Assembly: GCA_945875845.1 (NCBI GenBank)
Contig: CAMCMB010000053.1
Span: 1-48,882, forward strand
From: Pirellula staleyi DSM 6068
GTDB taxonomy: Bacteria > Planctomycetota > Planctomycetia > Pirellulales > Pirellulaceae
DNA: 48,882 bases
Direction of reading: 5' to 3'
The notes below the pieces were generated by a model, which was not told the origin of the DNA, made no database searches, and was given only the letters and a program-made list of their open reading frames with translations. Position numbers and translations under genes: made by a program. Shown piece after piece: positions 14,746 to 34,737 of this stretch (its first letter is position 1; the number at the start of each line of letters is the position of its first letter).

Positions 14746-15650
14746 CTCTGTGGGGTTGTCTCTTGGTGGGTGTGTTCGGGTTGGGCGGGCGGATTATCTG
14801 GAATCGGTGGGCCGATGAAACGTTGCGACCGGCCACATCCAATAACTTAGAGTCCAACGAAGCAGAAGTCGAATCCGCGAGCGCCAATCCACATGCGATC
14901 GATCCGTTACTGGAGTTTGCTCGCAGAGCCCTCGCCCATCATTGTCTCGAACATCAAGACTTTACCGCGAAACTGATTAAACGCGAACGCATTGCTGGCA
15001 AGCTTTTGCCGGCATCCAAAATGGAAATGAAGCTTCGGTATGGTTCTCGGTATGGTTCTGAGGATGCTACCGCAGAACGCACTGTTTCAGAACGCACTGT
15101 ATCCGTTTACTTGAAAGGCATCGAACCTAGATCACAAGCAGGACGGGAGATTATTTGGATTCAAGATAAAAACAATAACAAGCTCACCGCGCACGAGGGG
15201 GGCTTGCTGGGATTGGTCACGGTCGAGTTGTCGCCGCAAAGTAGTTTGGCCATGCTTGGCAACCGCTACCCCATCACGGAAATCGGAATCGAGAAACTGC
15301 TTCGCAAGTTGATTGAAAAAGGGGAACGCGATCGGTTGCTCGGCCCAGTTACGGTTCGTCGTACAGACAACGTCACCCTGGGCAATTTGCAATGCGCGCT
15401 GTGGGAAGTGGTTCACGAGGAACCGACCGTCGAGATCGAAGGGAAGCAAGTTGAGTTCGAGTTTCACTTGGCTCAGATCTACATTGATGAAGAACGCTTG
15501 GTGCCACTCAAGTACGCGAGTTACACCTGGCCCAAGAACAAGGGTGGTGAGCCTGAACTGGAGGAGGAGTACACGTACGAAGACCTAGTGATGAACGTAG
15601 GCCTGACAGATGCCGACTTCGATACCAAAAATCCGAACTATCGTTTCTGA
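14706..15650 (+). CDS. DUF1571-family membrane-anchored/exported protein
   Basis: The 314-aa product starts with a short basic stretch and one hydrophobic segment (residues about 12-31, LTLWGCLLVGVFGLGGRI), an uncleaved anchor or signal. The body resembles DUF1571, a family best known from planctomycetes: DPLLEFARRALAHH, DFTAKLIKRERIAGKL, ERTVSVYLKG, GREIIWIQ..NNNKLTAHEGG, YPITEIGIEKLLRKLIE, LVPLKYASYTWP and a final YEDLVMNVGLTDADFD. The family may have a LolA/LppX-like fold, but function is unknown. The GTG start at 14706 is supported by AAGAGGTG 7 bases upstream and by coupling to the preceding gene. Confidence 0.8.
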   Translation: MARQGYRVRLTRLTLWGCLLVGVFGLGGRIIWNRWADETLRPATSNNLESNEAEVESASANPHAIDPLLEFARRALAHHCLEHQDFTAKLIKRERIAGKLLPASKMEMKLRYGSRYGSEDATAERTVSERTVSVYLKGIEPRSQAGREIIWIQDKNNNKLTAHEGGLLGLVTVELSPQSSLAMLGNRYPITEIGIEKLLRKLIEKGERDRLLGPVTVRRTDNVTLGNLQCALWEVVHEEPTVEIEGKQVEFEFHLAQIYIDEERLVPLKYASYTWPKNKGGEPELEEEYTYEDLVMNVGLTDADFDTKNPNYRF

Positions 15651-15654
15651 CGAA

Positions 15655-15900
15655 ATGCTCATCGGATTCAATCATTCGCAACTAGCTGGTGTCTGTGCTC
15701 TGCTGCTTCAAAAGGACCCAAGCCTGACGCCGTCGGACATCAAGCAAATGATCCGCCGGACAAGTCGCGAAGTCATCAACGGCCAAGGCAACCTTTCCAG
15801 CAGCGAGGGTGTCGCAGTCAAAGCAAGTGCATGCGGCGACGGAGCCACAGGAACGGGCCTAGTCGACGCCTTCGCGGCGTTCCAGCAGTTGTTGGGCGTT
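15655..15900 (+). pseudogene. C-terminal remnant of a subtilisin-like (S8) serine protease
   Basis: Only the end of a subtilase catalytic domain is left. GFNHSQLAGVCALLLQ sits where an intact gene has GTSMSAPxVAG, so the catalytic Ser is lost; it is followed by LTPSDIKQMIRRTSREV and GTGLVDAFAAFQQL, the classic last helix and strand. No start codon or upstream catalytic Asp/His region exists; the sequence begins immediately after the DUF1571 stop. It is probably left by a deletion at the edge of the island. Confidence 0.65.
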
Positions 15901-16209
15901 GATGTTTGCTGCCGTTTTCAAACATGTCCAGAAATGAATAGTTTTCCTGCTCTGGGACCATCAAGCATTTCATGCAAACCGACGGTATCGAGTTGGCTGC
16001 ACCGACCAGTGTAGCCTCCAAATCAAAGTGGCTACGAGCACATCCATCAGATTGTCCATTGCTGCCCTTTCCCTAGGAAAGCGATTCCTGATTTGACTCG
16101 GCACATGCGGACCCAGTAAAAACCCACTTGCCGTGAGTTTGCGACGGAAATCCGGAAAAAGTAAAAAAACAATTCTCCCCTTCTTGTTGTGTTTCGCTTG
16201 GCAGACGGG
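15901..16209. other. Intergenic stretch, no gene seen
   Basis: I see no convincing gene, RNA or repeat between the protease remnant and the kinase operon promoter region. Local AT content is higher than in the flanking housekeeping genes. Confidence 0.5.
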
Positions 16210-16312: not shown

Positions 16313-18154
16313 ATGACAACTAGTTCAACAACGGAAACTCGTGCGATGATTGGTGGAATCGAATCTCTATTACTCGACATCGATCCCGAGCCAACCGAAC
16401 TTCGAATACACCAAGCTTTCAATGATCCCGATGGGAGTATTGTTTTTCGAGATTATTGCGAGAAGGTCTTTGGTGCTTATCTTCGGACTTTTCCAAAGAT
16501 AAAGGGAGGCTGGATTTCGATCGCTGGGGTCAAGCCGGAAGTTTTCACTCCTTTTGCTAGCTTCGGCGATTGTCGTGCTATTGCTAGGCGAGATATCGCA
16601 CGGCTCGATGCATACCGTTTCGCACCCGAAGGGATTGAAGTCGTTGATGTAACCAACCAATCCGACGTCTACAGGGGAATGGTCCTTGGAACTACAATCC
16701 TTCTGAGACTCATTGGACGACGCGAATATTATGGACTCTTGGGTTTGGTTGCTGGGGAAGGCAATGATCTTGATTCAGACACCGTCAACAATATCCTTTC
16801 CAGCCAAAGCCTGCTGTCTCGGCTTCTGGCAGAAGCCGTGTTTTCGAAGAGATTGAAGTCTCTCGTTTCGAAGTTCGAATCGGATGGGAAACCGGAGACA
16901 TTATACGATGAAATCGCCCGACGAGCGTGCTTAGGTCTTGGTGCAGATGGCGCTGTTCTTCGCATACGCGAAGATCAAGCCGGTTCGATTAACAGAGAGT
17001 ATCAACTTACACCGAAGGGTGCAGCAGGGCTGCTCGCAGGTACGATGCACCTTGAACCGGGTAGTGTTTTTGAACGAATATGTCGACGCGTCTATGAGTC
17101 ACAAAGTGATCATGCAACCGTTCAGATCTTAGGCAAGCAAGGGACAAATTATTCGCTTGGAGTGAGTATCCCCGACTCTGATAATCGAGAGGTCATGTCT
17201 CATGGAATCGAATCGTACATGATAATGAGACTCGAATCGGACTTCAAACTTGAACGGAATCAGTCGCCCGTTGGTACACTGTCGATATTTCATCGTATGC
17301 CCCAGCCATTCTCGGGCCGTGACATCAGTTTGTTTCAAGGCTTCTGCGAGCGCGTTGGAGACAACCTCACGCTGATGCACCAGCTTCAGGAACATGCGGA
17401 AGCATCACGTATACTTGAAATCCACCATGGACAAATCAACAGAGCTGAAATGGCAGTTCTCCTTGCACACGATTTTGGTCATAAGATTGAGTTTACAAAA
17501 CATCACCTAAAGGAGTTTGTTCAGTATTGCAAGAATCATTGGACAAATCGACAGTTGCCAAAGCAGATCCAACTAGCGGCGAATGACTTGCAAAAGTCAT
17601 GCGACGGACTCGAGCTGATACTCGCTCAAATTCGCAGGCTCGGAGATGGAGTTTCGATGGATGAAGGTACGTTCAACGTTAAGTCCGTTTTCAAAAGCAT
17701 CGCAGACCAACTAGGTCAGGTTCTGCAACGCCATAACATGGCACTAGAAATGAGGTGTCCTGAAAACCTGGAAATCTACGGTGCCCAAAGTGTACTTTTG
17801 CAATCGCTGTTCAATTTGGTAATCAATTCTATTGATGCTCAGAAAACTACTGGTAGAAAAAAGAAAAATACGGTGCATTTGTCGTGCCGTGAAATAGATG
17901 GAAGTCGACTGGAGTTTACGGTCTGGGATGAAGGCCCAGGTGTTAGTCCAATCTATTTCCCTGATCCTGAAAAGATCTTTGATATTGGGACCTCTTCGAA
18001 GCCCAATTCTATCGGCACCGGCACTGGACTACCAAACTCACGGAGTCTCCTTGGGCGGGCATTCGGAGCCAAACTACAACTGATTAATCGAACAAATGCG
18101 ACTTTTAGGTTCGTAGTAAATAAAAGAAACAAAACGAATCGAGAATCAAGATGA
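16313..18154 (+). CDS. Soluble GAF-type sensor histidine kinase (first gene of SIR2/SEFIR operon)
   Basis: This 613-aa cytoplasmic kinase has no membrane segment. Residues about 30-170 form an unrecognised sensor region and 190-360 look GAF-like (ending GRDISLFQGFCERVGDNLTLM). The phospho-transfer region has LLAHDFGHKIEFTKHHL with His386. The ATPase domain shows the N-box NLVINSIDA (501-509), G1 DEGPGV (539-544) and G2 GTGTGLPNS (568-576). All catalytic boxes are present, but the H-box is AHDFGHKI instead of the common HELRTPL, so the dimerisation domain is divergent. It overlaps the next gene by ATGATGA (18151-18154). It probably senses an internal signal and phosphorylates the downstream receiver. 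It has a more AT-rich codon choice than the housekeeping genes. Confidence 0.85.
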   Translation: MTTSSTTETRAMIGGIESLLLDIDPEPTELRIHQAFNDPDGSIVFRDYCEKVFGAYLRTFPKIKGGWISIAGVKPEVFTPFASFGDCRAIARRDIARLDAYRFAPEGIEVVDVTNQSDVYRGMVLGTTILLRLIGRREYYGLLGLVAGEGNDLDSDTVNNILSSQSLLSRLLAEAVFSKRLKSLVSKFESDGKPETLYDEIARRACLGLGADGAVLRIREDQAGSINREYQLTPKGAAGLLAGTMHLEPGSVFERICRRVYESQSDHATVQILGKQGTNYSLGVSIPDSDNREVMSHGIESYMIMRLESDFKLERNQSPVGTLSIFHRMPQPFSGRDISLFQGFCERVGDNLTLMHQLQEHAEASRILEIHHGQINRAEMAVLLAHDFGHKIEFTKHHLKEFVQYCKNHWTNRQLPKQIQLAANDLQKSCDGLELILAQIRRLGDGVSMDEGTFNVKSVFKSIADQLGQVLQRHNMALEMRCPENLEIYGAQSVLLQSLFNLVINSIDAQKTTGRKKKNTVHLSCREIDGSRLEFTVWDEGPGVSPIYFPDPEKIFDIGTSSKPNSIGTGTGLPNSRSLLGRAFGAKLQLINRTNATFRFVVNKRNKTNRESR

Positions 18155-18996
18155 TGAAAACTCCGAAGCTTCCAACCAAAATGCTCTTCGTGGACGACGA
18201 AATTACGATGTGCAAGCGGATACTGAAAGAGTCTTCCGACTATACCCATTTGGGTGTCCTGATTGCATCAGACCTGGATTCCGCGTGCGAGTGCATAGAT
18301 ACAGTGTCAGATATTGATGCCATCTTGGTCGACATGAACTTCCGAGAAGACGCCAAATCTAGCAAGCACAATCTTTCTGACGGAATTGATTTCATCTCTT
18401 ATGCGCAATCAAAACGTTCCGACTTGCCAGCATTCGTAATCACTATGGAAGGACCTCAGAGTGCCGCACGACACGGCGAAGCAACGGGGAAAAATGTGTT
18501 GATCCGAGAGTGGTATGACAAATTGTCTGCCAATCAGCCGGGAAAGCTCACAGTATGTGAGCAAATAGAGCGGCGACTAATCCTTGACGCGCTAAAGACC
18601 AACCCTGGGCTTCGTCAAGAGGTGGGTATGGTTGATTCGAGCGGGTGGCTTGAAAGTGATTTCGCGGACTCCTTGTGTAGGATGTTAAAGTATCCTCGGA
18701 TCAGCTATCTTCAAGATATGCCGCTTGGATCGAATCTCCAGATTTTAAAGCCGATTGAAGTATTGTGCCAGGAAGTAAGTGAGGGCCAGTTTGTAGCAAA
18801 AGCCACCAAGATCGGTCTTCTAATTGAGTTAGAGCCTCGCGATACTCCGTCTGAAGCAATTCAGTCGCTGGCTGAAATTATTGAAGAGGAATGGCATAGC
18901 CTGAAGTCATTGCCTTCCGAGGCAAAACTCGTGGGCTATGCAAAACTGCTGAGAGAGCGACTAGAAGATCATTTCAAGGAGTCCAATGCACCATGA
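18151..18996 (+). CDS. Receiver-domain protein with unknown C-terminal output domain
   Basis: Residues 10-130 form a receiver: MLFVDDEI (acidic pair Asp15/Asp16), ILVDMNF with phospho-acceptor Asp61, and FVITMEG with the switch Thr. The insert after Asp61 (EDAKSSKHNLSDG) is longer than usual, as in receivers near conflict systems. The C-terminal half (150-281) has no DNA-binding motif that I recognise. It contains PRISYLQDMPLGSNLQILKPIE and a helical end, so it is more likely a protein-interaction output than a transcription factor. Start and stop overlap both neighbours by four bases, indicating strict co-translation with the kinase and the next gene. Confidence 0.8.
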   Translation: MMKTPKLPTKMLFVDDEITMCKRILKESSDYTHLGVLIASDLDSACECIDTVSDIDAILVDMNFREDAKSSKHNLSDGIDFISYAQSKRSDLPAFVITMEGPQSAARHGEATGKNVLIREWYDKLSANQPGKLTVCEQIERRLILDALKTNPGLRQEVGMVDSSGWLESDFADSLCRMLKYPRISYLQDMPLGSNLQILKPIEVLCQEVSEGQFVAKATKIGLLIELEPRDTPSEAIQSLAEIIEEEWHSLKSLPSEAKLVGYAKLLRERLEDHFKESNAP

Positions 18997-19517
18997 ACCT
19001 GAAGGAGGTCAAGAAATCGCTCTCGTCGAAGCTAAAGCTTCGCGAATCCGAACATTCGGCTCATACGGACTATTGCGTCGTCTTGGACAATGCGATCATT
19101 CCATTGCCGCGTCTTATCCGTGTTTCACATGGCAGCGGAGAGACACCAAACAAGCAAATCGGAGGAATTGCTCGTGGACTCGGAATGTCGGAGTCCAATT
19201 TTAAGACCATGGTCAAGTGCCACATTAGGAAATCGTTTGTGGACATTTCGATCGCTGTCAAGTTGCTGTTGACGATTTGCGAGGACTGGAGAAACCAGGG
19301 TGACCCGATGCGGCCAGGTATGGAGGCTATGGCTGAGTCAATTGGTTTAGTGCTAAGAACAATTGATCCAAGGGAAATTAGCTCGTCCGACAAGACCTCG
19401 GGTGAAGAGAAAGTAATCGTTCATATCCGAAAGCTCCTTCGCGCAGTCGGTAACGATTCGCTATTTTCTGACTTGGTTCGGCAGATAAATGAGTTGCTTG
19501 GTGAAGAAGGCGAATGA
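18993..19517 (+). CDS. Small operon protein with HicA-like (dsRBD-fold) pattern, function unknown
   Basis: Of 174 residues, 1-85 follow a pattern I know from uncharacterised HicA-like proteins. A start such as KSLSSKLKLRESEHSAHTDY is followed by a strand, then RVSHGSGETPNKQIGGIA (a variant of the T-K-x-SHG motif), then RGLGMSESNFKTMVKC. In that group the small alpha-beta fold binds RNA, but the residues needed for cleavage are uncertain here. The rest (86-174) is helical. It overlaps the receiver gene and the SIR2 gene by ATGA at each end. It could be a regulator, antitoxin-like lid or adaptor for the effector. Family assignment is tentative. Confidence 0.55.
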   Translation: MNLKEVKKSLSSKLKLRESEHSAHTDYCVVLDNAIIPLPRLIRVSHGSGETPNKQIGGIARGLGMSESNFKTMVKCHIRKSFVDISIAVKLLLTICEDWRNQGDPMRPGMEAMAESIGLVLRTIDPREISSSDKTSGEEKVIVHIRKLLRAVGNDSLFSDLVRQINELLGEEGE

Positions 19518-21895
19518 CCGGTAATTCAGTCGCAATACCTCAGCTTTTGAGAAATCGACTTGTTAATCGGCAATGCGTTGCATTTGTTGGCCACGGATTC
19601 TCATCCTTAGCAGGAATGCCGAGCTATCAGCAATTGTACCAACTACTTGTTGCCAAAGCCGAAAGCAATGGAAGTCAGGGAAATAGGAAAAAAGAACTTG
19701 AGTTTGCGAAGAAGCAACTGAAACGCGACGGCGATTTGCAGGCGTCAGTAAAGACGATCCAAGGCCTGTTGTCGGCCGACGAAATAAGAACCGTTCTTGA
19801 AGAAGCATATTCGTCAAACCGAACTTCTGAACTGTCATTGCCCATCCGCGATCGCGTTGATCAAAGGCTTCGCTCGTTTGCAGAGAGCCCATGGGCAGGC
19901 GTGATAACGACGAACTATGACCAACTTGTTAAGCAGTCCTTTGTTCGTTTTCGAACCGCTTCGCAACCTTGGAACTCGTGCGGAGATGATGGATTCCTAG
20001 GAAACCTCTTGAGCAAATCCATTGGAGGTGGGACATTCTGCGTGCATTTGCATCGTGAATCGTTCCAAGAGAATTTGGCGATCACTCCCGAAGATTACAT
20101 CAGCAAATGGATGAAGACCCCAAAGGTTGAAATGTTTCTTAATTCGGTCATGTTTTGCTACACCATTGTTTTTCTAGGGTGTAGCCTACGAGACGATTTC
20201 TTATTCTTTCGACATGCTGCTTGGAAGCAGTTCTCCGGTTACCTTCCGCCTTGTTTTGCGCTATTGCCCAACAAAACAGAATTCAAGCGAAGGGCAGACA
20301 GCCTGAGCACCAACTATGGAATCACTCCAATTCTTTATCGCGACGACGAATTGCATCTCGAATTTGACGCGTATCTTGAAGCATTTCGCGACCTTTCGGA
20401 TGCAAGGCGAGTACAGGAAAGAATTCCTGAAAAGGTTTCCATTCCTGAGAATGCAAATATTAACGAGGTACTCGCCTCCATAGGTGAGATCAACCGAGCG
20501 ATACTGTTCTTAACAATCGAGAACAAGAACGAACTACCGTATTCCCTACTCATGGATGCTGAGCTTCTTGATTCGAAACTACCATCGACCTTCATTACCA
20601 TACTACGCCCGATCTCAGCAGCAGAGCGAACGTACCGCTGCCTTTATCTGACCTCTTTGGGGGTTTTGGAAGATGTCCGAAATGTAGCGTATCCACACTT
20701 TCGTGTGCCAGTTAAACTCATCAAAGATCTCAAATCATTGATGCCGACGGTTGCTCCAAGGAAATTGCAACCGGCGATGCCGAAGCAAAAGCCACCTTCG
20801 CGAGATAGAGCCATGGATGCCTTACTAAAGTTGACTGAGGAGCTTTTAGAGACCGTTGTACGCGATTTGGATGTGAGACCCTTGATCGCATCTAGAAGCG
20901 CAACCCCATTGCAACGATGCAACGACATTTTAGAGGTCCGAAGCCCGGCCGACGTTCTCGAGAGTATCAGCAGAGTTCTTGCAAAGTTTGCGCATAGTCG
21001 TTCGGAAGAACCTCACCACCCTACTTCGCCACACAGACCGGTAGATCAAACAGAGTCAGTGAAATTCAATTCGGACAAAAAACCAAAGAAAGGACCAATT
21101 CAATTGAAGATCCCTAAAGTATTCATCAGCTATAGCCACGACTCCGAACCACACAAGCAACGGGTGCTTGATCTTGCTCAGCAACTGAGAGCCGACGGAG
21201 TGGATGTTTCACTAGATAGATTCATTCAGTCACCTCCAGAAGGATGGCCCCTATGGATGCTGCGACAGATCGACTGGGCCGATTACGTTTTGTGCGTCTT
21301 CACCGAAAGATACAACGAAAGGTGCCTCGGTAACCAAAAACCCGGGGAAGGTAAAGGAGTTGCATGGGAAAGCACCCTTATGTTTAACGCTCTTTACGGA
21401 AGACCCCAATTCAATACCAAGTTCATTCCCGTCGTCTTCGATAGTCAGGACGAGAAGTGGATCATCCAACCACTGAAAGGATCCTCATATTTTCACTTGG
21501 ACAATCTCGATGCAAATGTCTCTGGCGGTTACCAGAACGTATATCGTTTGGTCACCAATCAACCTGAGGTGACTCCTGCGGGTGTGGGAGCAATTCACAA
21601 GCTACCTCCCGCTAAGCCGCTTCCGATCGTTCAACAAACTTCGGTGCCCACTCCCGTTTCGACCAAATCACCCACCGTTCCAATTATGGGAGAATCGGAA
21701 CTGCGTAAAAGACTCGGGGAGCTGTTGCCAGCCATGTTCAATTCAATCGTCGCTGATATGGAAGCAGACGGCTACATATCGGGTCAAAATGCTCCTACGG
21801 TTAGCCGTGCGATCGAACTCGTTAAGTTCGCGAAGATTAGAGACGAATTGAATATGCTAATTGGCCTTTACCTGGAGATCATCAATCCGAAGTGA
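19514..21895 (+). CDS. SIR2-SEFIR effector protein with C-terminal effector-associated domain
   Basis: The 793-aa protein has three parts. Residues 8-300 are a SIR2-like domain: VAFVGHGFSSLAGMPSY for the NAD loop, GVITTNYDQL with Asn134, FCVHLH with the candidate catalytic His178/His180, and VFLGCSLRDD. Defence SIR2 domains of this type hydrolyse NAD+. Residues 300-530 form a linker. Residues 533-690 are a SEFIR domain (TIR relative): PKVFISYSHDSEPHKQRV, LAQQLRADGVDVSLDRF, W-ADYVLCVFTERY and GVAWES with Glu619. Residues 727-790 form a compact helical domain (LLPAMFNSIVADME ... RAIELVKFAK ... LIGLYLEI) closely matching the start of the TIR gene at 23083. The start is fixed by the ATGA overlap and GAAGAAGG. 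It is the likely executioner of the operon. Confidence 0.85.
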   Translation: MTGNSVAIPQLLRNRLVNRQCVAFVGHGFSSLAGMPSYQQLYQLLVAKAESNGSQGNRKKELEFAKKQLKRDGDLQASVKTIQGLLSADEIRTVLEEAYSSNRTSELSLPIRDRVDQRLRSFAESPWAGVITTNYDQLVKQSFVRFRTASQPWNSCGDDGFLGNLLSKSIGGGTFCVHLHRESFQENLAITPEDYISKWMKTPKVEMFLNSVMFCYTIVFLGCSLRDDFLFFRHAAWKQFSGYLPPCFALLPNKTEFKRRADSLSTNYGITPILYRDDELHLEFDAYLEAFRDLSDARRVQERIPEKVSIPENANINEVLASIGEINRAILFLTIENKNELPYSLLMDAELLDSKLPSTFITILRPISAAERTYRCLYLTSLGVLEDVRNVAYPHFRVPVKLIKDLKSLMPTVAPRKLQPAMPKQKPPSRDRAMDALLKLTEELLETVVRDLDVRPLIASRSATPLQRCNDILEVRSPADVLESISRVLAKFAHSRSEEPHHPTSPHRPVDQTESVKFNSDKKPKKGPIQLKIPKVFISYSHDSEPHKQRVLDLAQQLRADGVDVSLDRFIQSPPEGWPLWMLRQIDWADYVLCVFTERYNERCLGNQKPGEGKGVAWESTLMFNALYGRPQFNTKFIPVVFDSQDEKWIIQPLKGSSYFHLDNLDANVSGGYQNVYRLVTNQPEVTPAGVGAIHKLPPAKPLPIVQQTSVPTPVSTKSPTVPIMGESELRKRLGELLPAMFNSIVADMEADGYISGQNAPTVSRAIELVKFAKIRDELNMLIGLYLEIINPK

Positions 21896-21931: not shown

Positions 21932-22281
21932 GTTCGGCGACAGTTAGAACTTCACGTTAGCGACAGTTAGATTTCCCCAAGGGAAAGTCTCTCGTTTTAG
22001 GACGATGCATCGAGGGGTACAGGGGCTTGGTTCTTGCTCGCATGCTCCAAGCGAAAGCTCGGGACGTTCAGTTCCAAGATCATGCTGTGGTGCACCAAGT
22101 GGTCGATCGCCGCTGCCGTCGTCATCGGGTGTTTGAAGATGTTCTCCCACTTCGAAAACGGTTGGTTCGAACTCAAGAGAATACTCAACTTCTCGTAGCG
22201 GTCCGCTATCAGAGTGAAGAGAACTTCCATCTTCTCCCGGCTCTGCTGAACGTAGCCAAGATCGTCGATGTGTCTTGCTCC
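21932..22281. mobile_element. Remnant of an IS21-family element
   Basis: The left end begins TGTTCGGCGACAGTTAGA and carries the 12-base repeat GCGACAGTTAGA twice (21938-21949 and 21961-21972), as IS21 ends do. It is followed on the minus strand by the end of an istB gene. The rest of the element is missing. It lies 36 bases after the stop of the SIR2-SEFIR gene. Confidence 0.7.
21997..22278 (-). pseudogene. istB: istB (IS21 helper ATPase), C-terminal fragment
   Basis: The visible residues include IDDLGYVQQSREKMEVLF, LIADRYEKLSILLSSNQ, PFSKWENIF and PMTTAAAIDHLVHHSMILEL. These are the Walker B to C-terminal part of the IstB AAA+ transposition helper. The N-terminal half with Walker A is absent, and the fragment joins unrelated sequence upstream. 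It is not functional. Confidence 0.8.
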
Positions 22282-22307
22282 AGTAGGAAGTGGAATTTCC
22301 GTTGAAT

Positions 22308-22326
22308 AGGTTAACATAACCTTTTT
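22308..22326 (+). terminator. Short hairpin plus T run in IS junction
   Basis: AGGTTA (22308-22313), a 3-base loop and TAACCT (22317-22322), followed by a run of T, could stop transcription between the IS21 remnant and the IS3-type remnant. The stem is short and AT-rich. Confidence 0.3.
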
Positions 22327-22341
22327 ACCAGAGAGATTTCC

Positions 22342-22811
22342 ATGACCCATTCACGTAGGAAATTCACAGCGGAACAAAAAGCTGCCATCGTTCGGCGGCA
22401 CCTAAAGGGAAAAGAGTCGATTGCCACGATAGCCGAAGAGCTATCGATTCAGCCAACGCAAATCCATCAGTGGGTTGCTGTTGTGATGGAGCAGGCAGAG
22501 AAGGCTTTCGAGAAGACCGCCAAATCGGATAAGGCCAGCAAGTCGGCCGAAGCCAAAATCAACGCTCTTAAGGAGCAGCAAATCCGTCGGTTGCAAGAGA
22601 AGCTCATCCACAAGAACGAAGGTATCGCAGAGCTCATGGAGGAGTTCGTTCGCGAATATGGCCTGACTTGCACAGCGCCATCGGCTACGTTACCCCTGCG
22701 GATTGCCTCGCAGGGCTAAGCGAAGTGATCGGGGAAGAACGCGATCGCAAGCTAGAAGCAGCACGCAAACAACGTCAAGAGAAGCGAGCTGCGGCAAAAC
22801 AAGTTGCATAG
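22342..22811 (+). pseudogene. IS3-type transposase remnant: orfA fused to the tail of orfB by internal deletion
   Basis: The first 105 codons are a typical OrfA: MTHSRRKFTAEQKAAIVRRH, an HTH with SIQPTQIHQW, then a coiled coil and the end ELMEEFVRE. Directly after this a second frame (from about 22667) reads DLHSAIGYVTPADCLAGL and then ERDRKLEAARKQRQEKRAAA to a TAG at 22809-22811. HSAIGYVTP is the hallmark C-terminal motif of the IS3 integrase (OrfB). The DDE catalytic core between them is deleted, so the element cannot move by itself. Confidence 0.75.
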
Positions 22812-23082
22812 CTTGAGCGAAGCAGCTACAACGAAGAGAGCTACACGAAGGATAGGGCACTGCAGAGGTGCAACCCGAGCGTCGTGGAGCCCAAAGTCGT
22901 GGAGCCCAAAGTCGGAATGAGGAGTGGCCCTTTTCGAAGGACCGCTCCCTTCCATTCCGATTTTGGCTTATGCGATAAACCTTCGCCGCACGATGCGGCG
23001 AAATCCCTAAGCAGGATGCGTTACCACTGCGTTAGCCAAGCGCGGAACATTCCATTTGCCGGTGAACCAAGCATCCTTTGAA
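22812..23082. repeat. Spacer upstream of TIR gene with tandem repeat and perfect hairpin
   Basis: No gene is seen. It holds a perfect tandem duplication of the 15-mer GTCGTGGAGCCCAAA (22881-22910). This is followed by a loose inverted repeat from CGGAATG (22913-22919) to CATTCCG (around 22953), with a T-rich middle. Further on is a perfect 9-base palindrome TTCGCCGCA-CGA-TGCGGCGAA (22982-23002), 80 bases before the EAD-TIR start; it could be an RNA hairpin or an operator. Confidence 0.6.
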
Positions 23083-24438
23083 ATGTCTCCTTCTGATCTA
23101 CAAGCGAAGCTCTCAAATCTTCTCCCGGCGATGTTCGAAGAGATCGTGTTTGATTTTGGGGCTTCCCATTACCTTCAAGGAATGAACTCCGCTCAAACAC
23201 TACGCGCGATAGATCTGGTGAAATATTCTCAGTCTACCGGCCAGTTCGATACGCTTATCGAACTGTACCTCGAGGCGACCGGTACGAATGTCGTCAAAAG
23301 GGCCAACACATCGTCAGATCGAATTGATTCACAGACGTTGGGAGATGATTCAAGGGATACGACAGAAGTTGACCGAAGTGCCTCGAAAGTCGGGTCACAG
23401 AAGCGGTTTTCTGTTGCTCTTTCCTTTCCATGCGAACATCGTGATTTCGTTTTGGCCGTTGCAGACGAGCTCGCAAAAGACTGTGGGCGAGACCGAATCT
23501 TCTATGATGAATGGTATGAAGTCGAGTTGCTCGGTGCTGGGGGCGATCTAAAACTGCAAGCCATGTACGAGGACGCGGACTTGGTCATCCCATTTTTTTC
23601 GCAGTACTACGAGAAACCTTGGTGCTCTATGGAGTGGGAGACCATACGGGGAATTCTTCTTACTCGCAGAAAGGAGGACGCAGTCATACCCGTTCACATG
23701 GACGACACTGCGATTCCTGGCTGGTCTATTGTGAATTTCGGTATCCGACGTCGATCAAGAAGTCCCCAAGCTATCGGCCAGATTGTATTGAATGCTCTTG
23801 ACCTTAGAGCACGGCGTTCACTGTCAGGTATCAAGCCGTCAACTCCAATTTCCAATGTGGAATTGAGTAAGACTCCGCCACAACAAGAATTGGCGAAAGA
23901 GCTTGCTGACTACTTGACTGAGCAACGAGATGTTGAAACGAATGAATCGTCAAGAATTGAAATCGATCGTCGACTTGCCGAACTAAAGGCGTACATCCCT
24001 AAGATAGTGATACCGCCCACGGAATTAGAGCAGCGGCGATTCTTGCGAGAGTCCTTCGCAACGATTTGCGAATTCTTCACTCAGGCAGGCGAGTTGTTCG
24101 AGAAAAGCAATTCGCGTGTCAACCTGGAGTTTTCACGTCCTGACCTTGAGAAGTTTCGTTGCGAAATGTACCTCGATGGAAAACAAATTACAGGATGTCG
24201 GATTTGGCTTGGTTCAGGGAAATTCGACTCCGGGATCCACTACTTTCAGGGTCGTGACACATCCACCGAATTCAACGCTAGGAACGAAACGCTAGTTGTC
24301 GACTCTTCCAGTGCTGGTGAATCACTTCTCTTAAAGGGGATACTTGGCATTTTGCAACCCGAGTCAATCGACCGCGCTGACCCTCAAACCGCTTCGCAAA
24401 TTCTTTGGAAGCGATTTGTCAGCCAACTGGAATCGTAA
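23083..24438 (+). CDS. EAD-TIR protein: effector-associated domain fused to TIR-like domain
   Basis: The 451-aa product (start ATG 23083; TTG at 23056 is possible but unlikely) opens with a 62-residue helical domain: LLPAMFEEIVFDFG, RAIDLVKYSQ, LIELYLEA. By eye this is identical at 28 of 62 positions to the C-terminal domain of the SIR2-SEFIR protein. Next is a TIR-like domain at about 107-241: FSVALSFPCEHRDFV, DRIFYDEWYEVELLG, YEDADLVIPFFSQYY, then WCSMEWE with the Glu expected of NADase TIRs, and IPVHMDD. A C-terminal region of about 200 residues (coiled coil near 270-310, then beta-rich) is unrecognised and may be a target sensor. TIR domains hydrolyse NAD+ or make signalling nucleotides. 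It ends 32 bases from the convergent metallopeptidase gene. Confidence 0.8.
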   Translation: MSPSDLQAKLSNLLPAMFEEIVFDFGASHYLQGMNSAQTLRAIDLVKYSQSTGQFDTLIELYLEATGTNVVKRANTSSDRIDSQTLGDDSRDTTEVDRSASKVGSQKRFSVALSFPCEHRDFVLAVADELAKDCGRDRIFYDEWYEVELLGAGGDLKLQAMYEDADLVIPFFSQYYEKPWCSMEWETIRGILLTRRKEDAVIPVHMDDTAIPGWSIVNFGIRRRSRSPQAIGQIVLNALDLRARRSLSGIKPSTPISNVELSKTPPQQELAKELADYLTEQRDVETNESSRIEIDRRLAELKAYIPKIVIPPTELEQRRFLRESFATICEFFTQAGELFEKSNSRVNLEFSRPDLEKFRCEMYLDGKQITGCRIWLGSGKFDSGIHYFQGRDTSTEFNARNETLVVDSSSAGESLLLKGILGILQPESIDRADPQTASQILWKRFVSQLES

Positions 24439-24470: not shown

Positions 24471-25724
24471 TTAAAACTCCGCTTTCTTTGCCAACTCGAT
24501 CGAAATAGGATCGAGATCATGGTTGCCTCGGCCCGCCCCAACATTGGTGTTGGCTATCACCAAGAAAGCTTCCTTGATTGTTTTTGCCAATGACAGAGAG
24601 ACTCGAACGACACATTTTTGTTGATGATAATCGCATTCCTTAACGGTAACGTGATCCTTTTGATCGACCAGCACCAATGCACTCTGGATCGATTCGAGGT
24701 TGGATCGGGTGTGACCATCAAATGAAACCGCCAAGTCCCATACGTTGATTTGCATTTCCTCGGGAATGGGAATGATTCGAAATCCTAGACGTTCAATCGG
24801 AGGCACCCGCCATACGCTATCGTTTACGAACTCCGCATTAGTCCAGGCCGGGCGACCAACGACTTGAACAATTTGTTGTGCCCAAGTCGGAAGTTGTTCA
24901 TATGGTAACGCCCATAGACAAGCGTATCGAAGAAATTGCGACGAAAGCGAAGCTTCGTCGACCCGCAGTTTCAGCGTTCGAATGAATCCAGCGAGCCAAT
25001 CCGACGCCTCGATTGGTCCAACATGTTGAGCAGAGATATTGTTCAACACCTGATTGTATAACCGTGCCGGAAACCACTTGCCAAACGTCTCCATTAGATA
25101 GACCATCCAGGGAAAAGCTTGAAATCCAAGCTCATCCGCTTGGCAAGAAATGTGTGGGGCATTCGCCCAATTCCAAAGGTTTGGAATCAGTTTTCCTGAA
25201 GCACCACCCAAGAACCACTCTGTCGCCAAAGCAACCGATTCATGCAGCCACCAATTTGGATCCTTGATAAAGACAGATTTACCAAGACCACTTCGATAGA
25301 GAGGAGAAGGGAACTGAAGTAGATGTAGCAATTCATGGATCGCAATCGTTCGTCGCATCCCAGCGTCATGTTCCGAAGAAGATTCTAGCGAGCGCGATGT
25401 CAACGCGAGGTAACAATCACTCAAACCCACCGGATCAGAGCCTGGATTAGCCAATCCGAAACGTCCTGCACCCAAGTCACGAATGGCAACATCGCACACC
25501 AATCCGATGGGTAAACTAGGCCAACCGTATTCCGAGCCGGTCAGTAGTTCATACCCTTCGGCAAGAGCGTTACCATACTGCTCCACAACAGCCTCATCGA
25601 TGATCGCATTGGTACGGTATTGATCCGTGAAATCCGACCGCAATCCATAGTGCATCAGGAACTTCCCGGTCTGAATCGGAATCGATCGCGTACGACACAG
25701 ATGGTGCGGCGGGGGCTTGCTCAA
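24471..25724 (-). CDS. Putative HExxH zinc metallopeptidase (terminal gene of AAA/kinase operon)
   Basis: In the 417-aa product IAIHELLHLLQF supplies an HExxH zinc site (His130, Glu131, His134). NWWLHESVALATEWFLG, 28 residues further on, supplies a Glu (162) fitting a gluzincin third ligand and a following conserved WF. There is no signal peptide or membrane segment, so it should act in the cytoplasm. The C-terminal 120 residues (VWDLAVSFDGHTRSNLE ... HVTVKECDYHQQKCVVRVSL) look like a beta-sandwich, possibly for substrate binding. The start TTG at 25724 overlaps the receiver stop (TTGA); an ATG at 25655 is the alternative. It probably is the effector released or activated by the upstream sensor proteins. 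I do not recognise a named family with certainty. Confidence 0.65.
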   Translation of the reverse strand: MSKPPPHHLCRTRSIPIQTGKFLMHYGLRSDFTDQYRTNAIIDEAVVEQYGNALAEGYELLTGSEYGWPSLPIGLVCDVAIRDLGAGRFGLANPGSDPVGLSDCYLALTSRSLESSSEHDAGMRRTIAIHELLHLLQFPSPLYRSGLGKSVFIKDPNWWLHESVALATEWFLGGASGKLIPNLWNWANAPHISCQADELGFQAFPWMVYLMETFGKWFPARLYNQVLNNISAQHVGPIEASDWLAGFIRTLKLRVDEASLSSQFLRYACLWALPYEQLPTWAQQIVQVVGRPAWTNAEFVNDSVWRVPPIERLGFRIIPIPEEMQINVWDLAVSFDGHTRSNLESIQSALVLVDQKDHVTVKECDYHQQKCVVRVSLSLAKTIKEAFLVIANTNVGAGRGNHDLDPISIELAKKAEF

Positions 25725-26392
25725 GAATTGCCCTTTCTGTCAAAAAGATGGAAAGTCAGTTTCCCCGGTCCAGGGGATTCGACGACCACCCACTTGCGAA
25801 CCAAGTCCCGTGTCTCCTTATTCAAATAATCCCAATAAGCTCGAATCAATCGCTCGGCTTGGATCCAGCCTGCTGTCGTGGAATGTGAGCCAATGTTGCC
25901 ATCCTCGAACAGTTGGTGAACTGCGGCTCTTACTTTTTTGGAAGCAAGTTCCGTAAAGAGCTGTTTTGCATGACGGATGATTGCGCTAGTCAAATACCCT
26001 TCTTTGAGTATCTTTTCGATGACGATCACGTTGGGGGAGGTGAGGTAATGCGATTCCAGGAATTTTTCTACATCGTCGGACTTGCGATAGCCTGTCATGA
26101 AAATACATGGAACTCCCAATTCTCGAAGTCGTTTAGCGACCTCAGGGTTGGAGTCATCGTTGCATCGGGGTTTCATTGGAACGCGAATGTCCAATACACC
26201 AAGAGTTGGAATTGGCCCTTGGTCGATGCAATCCAACGCTTCGATGATTGTGCCAGCTTGAATGATCGTGGTGCCGGGTAATTCCGGAGCGATCAGCCTA
26301 GCCAGAGATTCACGCAATGGTTGCTCATCTTCCAGAAGGAGTAAACGAAATAACTCGTTGGACTGTTGCTCGATTGCTTCGACACGCGTCAT
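25721..26392 (-). CDS. Receiver-domain protein coupled to AAA/GAF histidine kinase
   Basis: The 223-aa product has a receiver domain: LLLLEDEQPLRESL (acidic pair Glu21/Asp22), LGVLDIRVPM with Asp68 as phospho-acceptor, CIFMTGY with Thr100 and VIVIEKI with Lys127. An insert after Asp68 (KPRCNDDSNPEVAKRL) resembles the one in the receiver at 18151. The C-terminal 80 residues (ELASKKVRAAVHQLFED ... WVVVESPGPGKLTFHLF) are not a known DNA-binding domain. The ATG at 26392 overlaps the kinase stop (ATGA), and its own stop overlaps the next start (TTGA). It should take phosphate from the kinase and act on the protease. Confidence 0.8.
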   Translation of the reverse strand: MTRVEAIEQQSNELFRLLLLEDEQPLRESLARLIAPELPGTTIIQAGTIIEALDCIDQGPIPTLGVLDIRVPMKPRCNDDSNPEVAKRLRELGVPCIFMTGYRKSDDVEKFLESHYLTSPNVIVIEKILKEGYLTSAIIRHAKQLFTELASKKVRAAVHQLFEDGNIGSHSTTAGWIQAERLIRAYWDYLNKETRDLVRKWVVVESPGPGKLTFHLFDRKGNS

Positions 26393-29300
26393 TGGAGCTT
26401 TTCCTTGTTCGAATCCTCTTTGAACCGGGGCAAATCGATTCGAAAGCGAGCTCCTCCCCAAAGAGATCGGATGTTCTGAAATATCCCGCCATGTTCTGCA
26501 ACGATCATACTCACTCTGGAGAGCCCCAAACCATGACCTCGTTCATGTTCGGGCCATTGACTTCGATACTCACGGACCGGAACGTCTTGATACTCTTTTG
26601 GGAAACCATCCCCGTTATCTTCGATCTCGAAGCGGCACCATAGTTTTCCTTTGAACGAATGGCTAGTGATGGATACACGCAACTGAAGCTGACGCTTGTT
26701 GAACACCGCCTTGCGTCCATTTTCAATCAGTTCATCAATTGCCTCCTCAATGAGTTTCGGATCGAAGTTAAACTGCAGGAATGCCGGCGCTTCAATGAAC
26801 AGATTTTCTGGTTTTAGATGTTGTAGCAGTAAGGCACGAGCAAAGTCAACGAAATCCGTCGACTTGCAATGAAGCGTGAGTGGAGCGAAGCGGTCTTCCA
26901 CGTCTTCGAGAACTCCCTGAATGGTTTCGATTCGTTTCACCAGCTCAAGCCGATCCGGATTATCTTTCCCGATGACCGTCGATAAGACTTGAGCTTGCAA
27001 CAGGACCGAATTCAGTTTCGAACGAAGTTGATGTGCTGTATTTCCAATGACGGTAAGCATTAGCTTACGTCCCGCCGCTGTTTCGATTTCCGAACGTATT
27101 TCCTGGACTTGTAGGGAAGTAACGCAGGCGCTAGCTGCCTCGGCGAGTATTTCCAAATACTTTAGCATCTCAAGCGAAAAATCATCGGGACATTCGACAG
27201 TGATCTTTCCCAGCGGTGTACGACTTTCGTCACTTCGCAAAAGCGGTATATCGATCCACTTTGCGCCTGTTGGCTTTGCCAGATATTCAGGGCAGATTTT
27301 TCCTTCGGTATTGAAAAACCGGAGTCCGTCAGGAGATGTGAATTCGGTTTCGAACGGAAATCGTGAGTCGACAGCGAATAAGATCGGCATGCGCTCATCG
27401 AGAGCCCGCCAACAACCAAGTCCGTCCTTTCGCGAGAACCTCACTTTGCCTTGCTCGAAATGAATGGCTGCAATTGAATTCTCAGGAAATCCAAACTGTC
27501 TGATTCCAACCAAACATTGGTTGTGATGTGCAAGCGTTGCATCATTCGTTGGACTGCGTATTGCCGATACCTCGTTGTCGAGTCGATAAATTCTTGCGGA
27601 CTTGAAACCCAAGTCCTCAAGCGAATTCAACACCTCAGATGACAACGAGTTAAGGTTTTGGGATTTTGCGAAATTCTGGATCGCATGGAGTAGCTTCGCT
27701 AACGGATCAAAATAGTGGATTTGAATGAGGTAGGAATTGATTCCACCGCTCCAATCTTGGATTGCTTCTGCTTCGATCACCTGAAGCGTATCGGCACCGA
27801 ATTTTGAAACAGTGTGTTTTGATCCCGAAGAAATAGTACTATTTATCGCTTGAATCGTATCGGCGTCTGCGACTTTCCTCAAATCCGCGTACTCTTCGAG
27901 CCAACCCAGGCCCAATCCAAACTTCTCTGTTGCCATTCGATTGGCAAAATGCACCTGCAAATCTCGATCGCATAAGATGACGACCTCACGTTGCTGATGC
28001 AGCGACTGCTCCATCGTGTCGGTTTCCATCAATGAAAATATGGATGCAGCGAGCTGCTCCGAAAAAAGCACCAGAGATCGCATTTCCACATAGTCGGGTA
28101 GCTGCGTATCTGATCGCTCAATATGCATGGTCCCCAATACAGTGTTCTTATAAATCAAGGGAAAGAGAACAACGGCCCCCTGCTGGGCAGCTTTCACAAC
28201 TTTTTTGCAAGTAAAAGGATGCGCAGACGCATTGGCAATCGTAATAGGGAATTCTTCCAGAACGCACTGTTGCTGTATATCGGTGTAGCGAGTGGTTCCG
28301 TTCTCATCTATCGGAACGTCTAGTGGATAGTTAGTCATAGCCGCTATATCCTGTTGGCCAGGTTCGCGGCAATCGACTACACCTCGAATGCGATTTGTAT
28401 GGCGATCTACCATTGAGAACATAACGCGCCGATATCGTTTTTCTCGAAGAGTCTCTCCTGCTGCCTCCAAAACTTGTCTTGTCTTATCCGAACTTCCACT
28501 CCAAAGCTGAAACAACTTGGGTGTCACCTTTTCGATCAGTAAGGAATGGTACTGGTCTCGCTGATTTCTCTGACGATTGGTATTCGCAATGCGATAGGTA
28601 TCGCAAAATCTTGCAAGTGTATCGCGAGCCGCATTCCGCCTCTCGCGTGACATTGGGGATTTGTTGCCAAAATTACTAAGGGCAACGCAAAGGCTCGCTG
28701 AGTCTACAGCGGTAGGAAGCTTTGCCATGACATGGAAATCGCTGAGAATCGGATCGGGAGGCAACACCCCTACTCCCGAGTGAATAGAACTGGAGAGTAG
28801 GGATTTGAGCTTAGCTATGGTCGATGCAAACAACGCTTCTTTGTTGCGAGACGCATCGCATTTTAGAACCGAGAGCTTTCCCTTGAGTTTCCAGTCATTT
28901 TGTGTTTGATCGAATTCCCAAAACGTAACCTCGGAGAAACCAAGCAGTCGCATCGCGCCTGAACGAAAAAGCTTGCAAAGTCGTTCGATGTCGATACCGA
29001 CGGTTCCAGCTGCCTGAAATAAACCAGTTTCAAAGCTCCTTAAAGCGCTACTGAATCGCGGTCTCGTGTTCGCACTAATGGAGAAAGGTAGTTTTTTCTT
29101 GTAGGCCTGCCGGTAATGCTTAATCGCCAGTGGCCATTCGCTAGAGGCCGCGAAACTGTCTCCAAGCGTCCAATCATTGAAGTGTCGGCTCGCCAACGAT
29201 TGGACCAAGGGTGAAGCCCACTGGAGTCTGTGCTCGGACAAGTTGCGAACTGCGATTCCCGTCAATTCCAAGTCACTGGGAATCTCCGCATCAATCTCGT

Positions 29301-30243
29301 TAAGACCAACATGGCCGTGAGCAATCAGCCTGGAAATGAGCTTTAGCGAGTTGGCGGACTCTTCGATTCGAAAAAACGATCTCAAGAAAACGTCACAAAA
29401 AACGGAATGACTGGATGAAATTGAATCAATGGTAGACGCAATCTCGCCGACTGTAATGTCGCCCGAAAATCGGCTTAGGATCTGACGTCGGCTTTCCAAT
29501 ACTGACTCAAGGATCACTCTTTGCAATAAGAGATTTCCATTTGTTTGCTCATCCATGACGTCAGCACATCCGGTCGCCATAGACGAATCGATCGCGTGAT
29601 TTTTTGTTTTGAAAATCTCGCCGATAAGGTCCTTTCCCAATCCTTGGACTACATATTGCATCGGAATAGCGAACTCGGAGTTGTGGCCGTGAACAAAGGG
29701 GGCAAGATCAAAGGCTCCTGAAACGACGATGGAGACTCGCGAAAGAGTTTCGTGTCCGTAGCCACAAAGCTCTCGTAACCCCTGAAGAATAGAACGGGTC
29801 TGGCCTGAAGATATGGCATCCAAGTTAGAGATGAAAAATACGTATCGTGTCGGTCTTTGTGCGTGTTTCAAATGATCACGGAGTAGTTCGATCCATAGCG
29901 ATTCTGTGGATTCCACATGAGCAGTTTGAGCGGGAATCGAGTCGCAGCAGCGAGATACCTGGGAATATAGAAAATCGGTGACTTTACCATCGGCCGCGTT
30001 TGAGAAATCTTCACAATTGACTCGTATCGACTTCCATTCCTTTGACGCAACGAACTGCTGAGCATGCGAGAGCAAGAATCGCTTTCCGATCCCTGGTGGT
30101 CCAAGCAACGCGATGCTCTCTCCTCGCTCAATCTGCGATTCAATTTGCTGAATGTCCGAAACAGTGAACTTCGTATAGATGAAGTTAACGGTTCGATATG
30201 AAGCGTCATTCATCTTGGATTCTTCGTCTACTGTTGGAATCAT
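26389..30243 (-). CDS. AAA-type ATPase / GAF / histidine kinase fusion (1284 aa)
   Basis: Numbering from the ATG at 30243, which overlaps the upstream stop (ATGA). Residues 20-330 are a P-loop ATPase of AAA/STAND type, with Walker A LLGPPGIGKRFLL (about 46-58) and Walker B RYVFFISNLDAI (about 133-144). A winged-helix/helical section follows. At least three GAF-like or PAS-like modules span about 390-1040 (RLLGFSEVTFWEFDQ, RRVMFSMVDRHTNRIRGVV, LGFKSARIYRLDNE). The kinase end has VIGNTAHQLRSKLNSVLLQA with His1081, N-box IDELIENGRKA, G1 EIEDNGDGFP and G2 RGHGLGLSRV. Such ATPase-GAF-kinase proteins couple a nucleotide-switch sensor to phosphotransfer. It is soluble. With the upstream AAA ATPase and downstream receiver it forms the core of the operon. 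Confidence 0.8.
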   Translation of the reverse strand: MIPTVDEESKMNDASYRTVNFIYTKFTVSDIQQIESQIERGESIALLGPPGIGKRFLLSHAQQFVASKEWKSIRVNCEDFSNAADGKVTDFLYSQVSRCCDSIPAQTAHVESTESLWIELLRDHLKHAQRPTRYVFFISNLDAISSGQTRSILQGLRELCGYGHETLSRVSIVVSGAFDLAPFVHGHNSEFAIPMQYVVQGLGKDLIGEIFKTKNHAIDSSMATGCADVMDEQTNGNLLLQRVILESVLESRRQILSRFSGDITVGEIASTIDSISSSHSVFCDVFLRSFFRIEESANSLKLISRLIAHGHVGLNEIDAEIPSDLELTGIAVRNLSEHRLQWASPLVQSLASRHFNDWTLGDSFAASSEWPLAIKHYRQAYKKKLPFSISANTRPRFSSALRSFETGLFQAAGTVGIDIERLCKLFRSGAMRLLGFSEVTFWEFDQTQNDWKLKGKLSVLKCDASRNKEALFASTIAKLKSLLSSSIHSGVGVLPPDPILSDFHVMAKLPTAVDSASLCVALSNFGNKSPMSRERRNAARDTLARFCDTYRIANTNRQRNQRDQYHSLLIEKVTPKLFQLWSGSSDKTRQVLEAAGETLREKRYRRVMFSMVDRHTNRIRGVVDCREPGQQDIAAMTNYPLDVPIDENGTTRYTDIQQQCVLEEFPITIANASAHPFTCKKVVKAAQQGAVVLFPLIYKNTVLGTMHIERSDTQLPDYVEMRSLVLFSEQLAASIFSLMETDTMEQSLHQQREVVILCDRDLQVHFANRMATEKFGLGLGWLEEYADLRKVADADTIQAINSTISSGSKHTVSKFGADTLQVIEAEAIQDWSGGINSYLIQIHYFDPLAKLLHAIQNFAKSQNLNSLSSEVLNSLEDLGFKSARIYRLDNEVSAIRSPTNDATLAHHNQCLVGIRQFGFPENSIAAIHFEQGKVRFSRKDGLGCWRALDERMPILFAVDSRFPFETEFTSPDGLRFFNTEGKICPEYLAKPTGAKWIDIPLLRSDESRTPLGKITVECPDDFSLEMLKYLEILAEAASACVTSLQVQEIRSEIETAAGRKLMLTVIGNTAHQLRSKLNSVLLQAQVLSTVIGKDNPDRLELVKRIETIQGVLEDVEDRFAPLTLHCKSTDFVDFARALLLQHLKPENLFIEAPAFLQFNFDPKLIEEAIDELIENGRKAVFNKRQLQLRVSITSHSFKGKLWCRFEIEDNGDGFPKEYQDVPVREYRSQWPEHERGHGLGLSRVSMIVAEHGGIFQNIRSLWGGARFRIDLPRFKEDSNKEKLQ

Positions 30244-33584: not shown

Positions 33585-33719
33585 CATCCCCTCCGATGGC
33601 TCACTTCGAGTTTCGCACATAAGTTCAACCCCAAAACGTGACAGGAAAGTTCTTTTTCGAATATGGGCCAGTCATTTCCTCGCCTTGAATAGACTTCATG
33701 CACAGATCTTGAGGCAAAC

Positions 33720-34640: not shown

Positions 34641-34737
34641 AGGCGATTGTCTCTGGACTGAAAGCTGGAATGGTTCAATCAAGCTGGTAACGGTGCCATG
34701 CGAAGCTACAATTCCTTGCGCATTGAACAAGCGATCT

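Follow-up and report, generated by a model that had tools for sequence, protein, structure and literature searches.

A Pirellula operon-like unit that sets a histidine kinase and a divergent receiver before a SIR2-SEFIR protein: a candidate phosphorelay-gated module

The window analysed here is a contig of 48,882 nucleotides (nt) from Pirellula staleyi DSM 6068 (CAMCMB010000053.1; contig C53 of a 7.0-Mb genome in 149 contigs). It holds a real, well-formed operon-like unit of four forward-strand genes (16313-21895) with an intact-looking histidine kinase (HK1), a receiver protein (RR1), a small protein and an effector that carries SIR2 and SEFIR domains. The list of open reading frames (ORFs) and a reading of the junctions confirmed what the initial annotation of this DNA had described, four genes that overlap by ATGA, with the 4-nt overlap exact at all three junctions (18151, 18993 and 19514). 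Judged from the families of its products, the unit could be a phosphorelay-gated module that depletes nicotinamide adenine dinucleotide (NAD) in an abortive-type response, a reading that we prefer while giving it a little short of an even chance.

Domain content of the operon and its tie to a TIR protein

Pfam recognises in HK1 a HATPase_c domain (residues 493-603, E 2.2e-10) and a GAF domain (residues 194-349, E 1.6e-4), the latter at 22.6 bits and thus barely above the cutoff of 22.4. In a PDB search, H386 (codon 17468-17470) aligned with the histidine of the AHEIRNP motif in the sensor protein 3a0r, which we take to be the phosphorylated histidine of ThkA, and the NLVINS, DEGPG and GTGTG boxes of ATP binding were all found. 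The two Pfam domains and the position of H386 bear out the earlier reading of this gene as a GAF histidine kinase. HK1 has no membrane-type hydrophobic stretch (the maximum 19-residue Kyte-Doolittle mean is 1.25), and a Pfam search of residues 1-190 gave no family. Matches occur in 284 of 392 genomes of the phylum and, among the matches listed, all but its own begin at residue 313 at the earliest, in the generic kinase part; 49 plasmid records also match, and the 10 listed all begin at residue 257 or later.

The receiver is divergent. The region from about residue 9 to 114 of RR1 gives a Pfam Response_reg match of E 0.02, and a relative introduced below (P0004) one of E 0.005, both under the cutoff. 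A two-sequence profile nonetheless aligned with Helicobacter pylori CheY (E 0.059), keeping D15/D16, D61 (codon 18331-18333) and T98 in register, which by their positions on CheY are presumably the acidic pair, the phosphorylated aspartate and the conserved threonine. A PHROGs phage-family model without assigned function covers residues 6-119 (E 0.003), and the AlphaFold2 model (mean pLDDT 39.2) is too poor for use, though its order of strands and helices is receiver-like. The initial annotation had proposed a receiver with a non-DNA-binding output: the CheY alignment upholds the receiver with D61, whereas "non-DNA-binding" can be kept only in the sense that no DNA-binding family was detected. 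Scanning genome contigs with two peptide patterns of RR1 yielded 107 stretches with one relative among them, a receiver in an Algoriphagus metagenome-assembled genome (32% over residues 5-101) that was found through the DMNFRED pattern and confirmed by tblastn (6e-6); judged by eye from its translation, it would belong to an NtrC-like sigma-54 regulator.

That the fourth gene encodes a SIR2-SEFIR protein, as had been predicted, is confirmed by Pfam matches to SIR2_2 (residues 8-291 approximately, E 2e-11) and SEFIR (residues 534-662, E 3.6e-14) and by the PADLOC model bSEFIR (1.2e-44). Alignment to the SIR2_2 protein P0009 placed the conserved Asn/His pair of the NADase site at N134 and H180 (VHLHRE over VKLHGD); of the catalytic residues named earlier, N134 therefore holds and H178 gives way to a histidine two residues off. 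The GAG of P0009 reads GHG at effector residues 26-28. Only SIR2_2 and SEFIR/TIR_2 pass the Pfam cutoffs, neither a SLOG nor a Macro domain was found by Pfam, and the middle region (residues 281-530) matched no family. No receiver was detected by Pfam at E up to 0.1 in the 793 residues of the effector. The PADLOC ThsA model reaches E 0.05 over residues 121-227 only. A receiver-like tail of P0009, suspected by eye, was likewise not found by Pfam.

The C-terminal region of the effector (residues 724-793, nt 21683-21892) shares a 65-residue domain with the N-terminus (nt 23083-23286) of a TIR protein encoded downstream. The two copies align without gaps at 29 of 65 identical positions (45%), and their score of 137 compares with a mean of 21.8 for 2000 shuffled sequences (standard deviation 4.1, maximum 40). 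The distance between them is 1.2 kb, and of the two effector-type proteins one carries its copy at the C-terminus, the other at the N-terminus. This domain resembles an effector-associated domain (EAD), because EADs have been described as closely linked, similar to one another and placed at opposite ends of their proteins; neither copy matched any Pfam family at E up to 10. A three-copy profile built from the effector, the TIR protein and the effector relative P0008 detected matches in 5 of 294 phylum genomes and was strong only at these two places, with one partial match in each of the four other genomes (E 0.003-0.01) taken as chance. Possible EADs in the C-terminal parts of the small protein, of RR1 or of the second receiver in the window (RR2), or in the metalloprotease-like protein described below, were dropped at hhalign probabilities below 1%.

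The TIR protein matches TIR_2 (E 8.6e-10) and contains WCSME at E193, which we take to be the WCxxE pattern of TIR domains, while residues 322-458, outside the TIR domain, match the PADLOC model ThsB1|ThsB (1.1e-15). Its matches lie in 2 of 27 genomes of the genus, the other covering the TIR domain only, and in 22 plasmid records, none covering 80%. A separate TIR-domain protein in the same genome (G000:C17:27079-27498) is 33% identical to that of the window. Since a remnant of IstB and an HTH fragment of a transposase now stand between the two genes (Table 1), the operon may formerly have had the TIR gene as its fifth member. The unit was first drawn to end at 21895; its four genes stand, but this is probably not its end, as the EAD-like domain ties in the TIR protein. 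The proposal that strict overlap implies fixed stoichiometry and direct protein contact does not follow, because a 4-nt overlap is a common form of translational coupling.

The HicA-like fold tentatively assigned to the small protein is unsupported, which is not to say disproved, as Pfam, PADLOC, NCBIfam and PHROGs gave no family match beyond chance and the AlphaFold2 model (mean pLDDT 41.6) is unusable. Pfam returned nothing at E up to 10 and PADLOC nothing at all, the PHROGs match (E 0.31) and an NCBIfam match of the relative P0006 (E 0.1) are at chance level, and a PDB search gave no relative better than E 0.7. A histidine phosphotransfer (Hpt) role was considered for the H144xxK147 pattern in the predicted helical half and was dropped, with no Pfam match at E up to 10 and no Hpt protein in the PDB search.

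Table 1. Coordinates of the operon, the TIR gene and the convergent second operon in the window
Feature	Position	Strand	Basis and remarks
HK1, soluble GAF histidine kinase, 613 aa	16313-18154	+	ORF list, Pfam, PDB alignment
RR1, divergent receiver and C-terminal region without family, 281 aa	18151-18996	+	Pfam below cutoff, CheY alignment
Small protein without family, possible adaptor, 174 aa	18993-19517	+	ORF list
SIR2-SEFIR-EAD effector, 793 aa	19514-21895	+	Pfam, PADLOC, alignment
IS21 IstB C-terminal remnant, between operon and TIR gene	21997-22350	-	E 1.5e-20
Transposase HTH_Tnp_1 fragment, between operon and TIR gene	22342-22719	+	E 2.5e-10
EAD-TIR protein	23056-24438	+	start may be ATG 23083; EAD-like region 10-77, TIR 120-221
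Operon 2, last gene, 417 aa, HELLH (130) and WLHES	24471-25724	-	no Pfam match; TTG start, 4-nt overlap with RR2
Operon 2, RR2, receiver and C-terminal extension	25721-26392	-	Pfam E 0.0016, below cutoff; PADLOC PDC-M60B E 2.3e-4; chosen ATG start
Operon 2, HK2, AAA-like NTPase N-terminus (below Pfam cutoff), GAF, histidine kinase	26389-30243	-	chosen ATG start
Operon 2, NTPase	30240-31445	-	AAA_22 above cutoff; nSTAND1 below cutoff

Distribution and genomic setting

RR1, the small protein and the SIR2-SEFIR protein were searched against about 5.8 billion proteins by a method that needs shared 5-residue words and so misses remote relatives, and that scored for the SIR2-SEFIR protein only the 7994 candidates sharing most words. 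The sole full-length relatives were P0004 (RR1, 92% identity), P0006 (small protein, 86%) and P0008 (SIR2-SEFIR protein, 74%), and for each of them the listing gives a single contig, 61,141 nt long, from the source "lgn"; beyond this set and the window's own proteins, the searches gave only P0009. From the equal listing, the three are probably on a single contig, on which their order was not seen. As the only full-length relatives share contig and source, the three genes very probably travel together, and the module, judged by three of its four proteins, is apparently not confined to this genome. Identity to the relatives is highest in the receiver (94%), followed by the RR1 output region (90%), the N-terminal half of the small protein (89%) and SIR2 (88%), and is lower in the C-terminal half of the small protein (83%), SEFIR (74%), the middle region (67%), the EAD-like domain (59%) and the linker (35%).

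Within the phylum the module is rare. RR1 was found in 1 of 392 phylum genomes and 1 of 199 family genomes, in both cases its own, with 13 listed congeners among those lacking it. The SIR2-SEFIR protein matched 32 places in 25 of 248 class genomes: one full-length (its own), one over the EAD (the TIR protein of the window), seven over SIR2 and 23 over SEFIR, none except its own spanning both SIR2 and SEFIR. One SEFIR place lies elsewhere in the same genome (G000:C4:7511-7915), where no kinase was found in the surrounding 17.5 kb (L107). Searches of viral contigs with HK1, RR1, the small protein and the SIR2-SEFIR protein returned no relative. Plasmids gave no match to the small protein and 133 records for the SIR2-SEFIR protein, none covering 80%; in the two plasmid neighbourhoods inspected, a kinase-receiver pair was annotated in neither. 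Four phage records match the SEFIR part only.

A second kinase-receiver operon (operon 2, 31445-24471, reverse strand) converges on the TIR gene, with 32 nt between 24438 and 24471. Given the chosen starts (ATG 30243, ATG 26392 and TTG 25724), its junctions read ATGA, ATGA and TTGA and are 4-nt overlaps as well. We take HELLH and WLHES in its last product to be a metalloprotease-like pattern; this gene occurs in 1 of 128 class genomes and has no plasmid match. Matches to HK2 lie in 21 of 27 genus genomes including its own, those in the other genomes being confined to the kinase end (from residue 1025), and matches to RR2 in 26 of 248 class genomes, where the best other match (E 3.2e-7) is as expected of generic receivers. 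RR1 and RR2 were considered as paralogues and this idea was set aside.

The region from about 16 to 34 kb has a G+C content of 0.465-0.51, compared with about 0.52-0.57 in the segments 5-16 and 34-44 kb, a contrast that is local and modest since both window ends (1-6 kb and 44-48 kb) also dip to about 0.49-0.52. Homologues of the flanking RibBA and DUF1571 genes are present in 16 of 16 family genomes examined. In the congener G510, the fba-14218-DUF1571 block lies on contig C38, whereas C88 carries the RibBA-sigma54-HEAT block; in the congener G564 the same two blocks are likewise on separate contigs, each of them short. A tblastn search (E 1e-8) of eight stretches from six genomes detected no window gene from the interval 15.65-34.73 kb. 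The region thus appears lineage-specific and mobile-looking, with several conflict-type genes, on draft contigs that do not prove an insertion site. At 15610-16014 (+) a subtilase C-terminal fragment (below the Pfam cutoff) overlaps the DUF1571 gene and is a possible junction scar at the left edge of the island. At 33720-34730 (-) lies a further TIR protein (TIR_2 2e-17; PADLOC PDC-S66 1.7e-28) that has a hydrophobic stretch around residue 189, and at 31917-33620 (-) a sigma-70 family factor (r2, r4) overlaps small genes, one with a VMAP-M1 match of E 0.014, below the cutoff.

Proposed mechanism and competing readings

If the operon works as a phosphorelay-gated NAD-depletion module, a cytosolic signal would reach the N-terminus or the GAF domain of HK1, which would autophosphorylate at H386 and pass the phosphate to D61 of RR1, both residues being present. 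Phosphorylated RR1, probably together with the 174-residue protein, might then relieve or nucleate the SIR2-SEFIR effector by protein contact and not through transcription; activation at the protein level is suggested because no DNA-binding family was detected in RR1 and because the genes form one overlapping operon. The SEFIR domain and the EAD-like C-terminus could serve to assemble the effector and to bring in the EAD-TIR protein, after which SIR2 (N134/H180) and TIR (E193), going by their families, would consume NAD and so stop the cell and any invader.

Several observations weigh against this reading. The receiver match of RR1 stays below the Pfam cutoff and its conserved lysine could not be placed (it may be K124), the C-terminal region from about residue 131 to 281 matched no family and leaves the output side of RR1 unaccounted for, and the small protein has no assigned role. 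A copy of the EAD-like domain, which by the published rule should sit on a core component, was sought on HK1, RR1, the small protein, HK2, RR2 and the NTPase and not found, the best E being 3.7. Fewer sites turned up in promoter and terminator scans than in shuffled sequences, so the scans are uninformative and promoter support is absent. A survey of other loci speaks against the reading as a general idea: a histidine kinase was found near none of 20 examined loci (17 SEFIR, 3 SIR2) of the 30 places outside the window, in stretches of 8.6-19 kb, several of them short or ending near the match, with ORFs of at least 100 residues and E up to 10. The HATPase profile used, built from 17 sequences (15 kinase loci and 2 from the window), recovers 29 of 29 kinase loci; HATPase alone was scanned and receivers were not. 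Because all 20 loci lack a histidine kinase, the kinase link is a feature of a rare module and is not general to the SEFIR/SIR2 effector family. The earlier designation of a candidate defence system is therefore retained in part: the operon-like unit and its lineage-specific stretch with TIR genes and insertion sequence remnants stand, an anti-phage function would be a prediction from them, and these loci weigh against its generality.

Among the alternatives, it is unlikely though not far-fetched that SIR2-SEFIR and TIR form a Thoeris-like or stand-alone conflict pair and that the two-component genes serve expression control or are mere operon neighbours, in which case the output of RR1 would be a DNA- or RNA-binding one that escaped recognition. 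Thoeris pairs a SIR2 protein with a TIR protein, and the ThsB match of the TIR neighbour fits this, whereas no SLOG or Macro domain was found in the SIR2 protein. Regulation of defence gene expression by two-component systems is known, according to the abstract of PMC8523701; here, however, no DNA-binding family was detected in RR1, and the regulatory genes and the effector gene, joined by 4-nt overlaps, seem to share one transcript, which leaves autoregulation as the sole visible target. More doubtful still is a non-immune stress or developmental signalling module in which SIR2 would act on proteins or small molecules, the least probable of the readings we considered. A soluble GAF kinase could sense any metabolite and the immune role is itself predicted from sequence, but the SIR2_2 and SEFIR regions match PADLOC defence models, and a receiver absent from 198 of 199 family genomes is unsuited to housekeeping.

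Operon 2 raises a further alternative, in which HK1-RR1 and HK2-RR2 would feed a shared SIR2-SEFIR-EAD/EAD-TIR NADase assembly with the metalloprotease-like protein as a proteolytic trigger; we consider this improbable. Both operons carry a kinase, a receiver, a putative effector and 4-nt overlaps, they meet at the EAD-TIR gene, and all genes lie in one lineage-specific stretch. Proteolytic activation has been proposed for EAD systems, as passages of PMC8195603 indicate. Islands, however, often stack unrelated systems, RR1 and RR2 are both receivers but show no further detectable relationship, a blastp comparison of HK1 with HK2 gave no match at E up to 1, and no EAD was found in operon 2. In a more elaborate and similarly improbable form, two independent phosphorelays, the first headed by a soluble GAF kinase and the second by an AAA-GAF kinase that has a separate NTPase next to it, would act as an AND/OR gate on an EAD-bridged complex of SIR2-SEFIR and TIR NADases with a metalloprotease-like output. 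Such a gate, if real, would to our knowledge have no precedent, either as a SIR2/TIR complex gated by a phosphorelay or as an EAD-type adaptor that a two-component system controls.

Should the single-operon phosphorelay reading be correct, two-component signalling, usually seen as gene regulation, would be a front end that can be reused with cell-suicide effectors outside Detocs, one that could be plugged into SIR2, SEFIR and TIR NADases through small adaptor domains. The operon is compact and offers testable residues (H386, D61, N134, H180 and E193). Because RR1 occurs in 1 of 199 family genomes, the module would probably escape approaches that discover defence systems by their frequency.

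Relation to known systems

In Detocs, receiver and PNP are fused in one protein. Passages of PMC11728103 and PMC11249213 describe the system as a kinase, a phosphate-buffer protein and a response regulator, the best-described form having a PNP effector that acts on ATP. Like Detocs, the operon would place a nucleotide-destroying effector under a histidine kinase and a receiver within a few adjacent genes, and HK1 provides the histidine kinase (HATPase 2.2e-10, H386). Unlike Detocs, its effector has no detected receiver and RR1 is separate, there is an additional 174-residue protein, and the effector is SIR2-SEFIR-EAD, a comparison made by description only. The buffer protein of Detocs is a stand-alone receiver; RR1 is encoded apart from the effector and has a C-terminal region of 150 residues in addition to its receiver. 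HK1 and RR1 gave no PADLOC match at E up to 0.1, in a library that may or may not hold Dtc models.

Thoeris has a ThsA protein with SIR2 plus a SLOG/Macro domain, and bSEFIR acts as a single gene. The operon resembles Thoeris in that a SIR2 effector is encoded close to a TIR protein whose C-terminal part is ThsB-like; it departs from Thoeris in that its SIR2 is fused to SEFIR and the EAD-like domain, in its kinase and receiver, and in the insertion sequence remnants that precede the TIR gene. The SEFIR region is shared with bSEFIR, and the conserved Asn/His pair is as in the SIR2 of Nezha (SIR2-HerA), whose partner is the HerA helicase according to passages of PMC11559045; a kinase and a receiver occur in neither bSEFIR nor Nezha, as far as seen.

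EADs are described, in passages of PMC7159879 (eLife 2020 e52696), as small terminal domains in linked genes with one copy on a core component, and the position and linkage are described likewise in passages of PMC8195603 (eLife 2021 e70394). The operon and the TIR gene resemble such systems in the small terminal domain common to two closely encoded effector-type proteins, each copy being nearest to the other; they differ in that no Pfam match links it to a known EAD family and in that the kinases, receivers and NTPase here carry no copy. Sections of the 2020 paper on vWA-associated effectors state that no histidine kinases were found there, and passages of the 2021 paper report that in related systems receivers occur independently of kinases.

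The kinase-receiver-effector logic would thus be that of Detocs and the assembly logic that of EAD systems. The initial annotation had regarded a phosphorelay in front of an NAD-degrading effector as undescribed: a phosphorelay driving a nucleotide-destroying effector is already known from Detocs, while a SIR2-SEFIR effector in that position and its EAD-TIR coupling were not found described in the papers searched. No title or opening of an abstract among the top-ranked open-licence papers describes a kinase-receiver-SIR2 operon, which is weak evidence of absence. On its sequence features, the operon is best regarded not as categorically new but as a reasonable candidate for a novel form of phosphorelay-gated immunity, one that appears tied to a TIR protein by an EAD-like domain.

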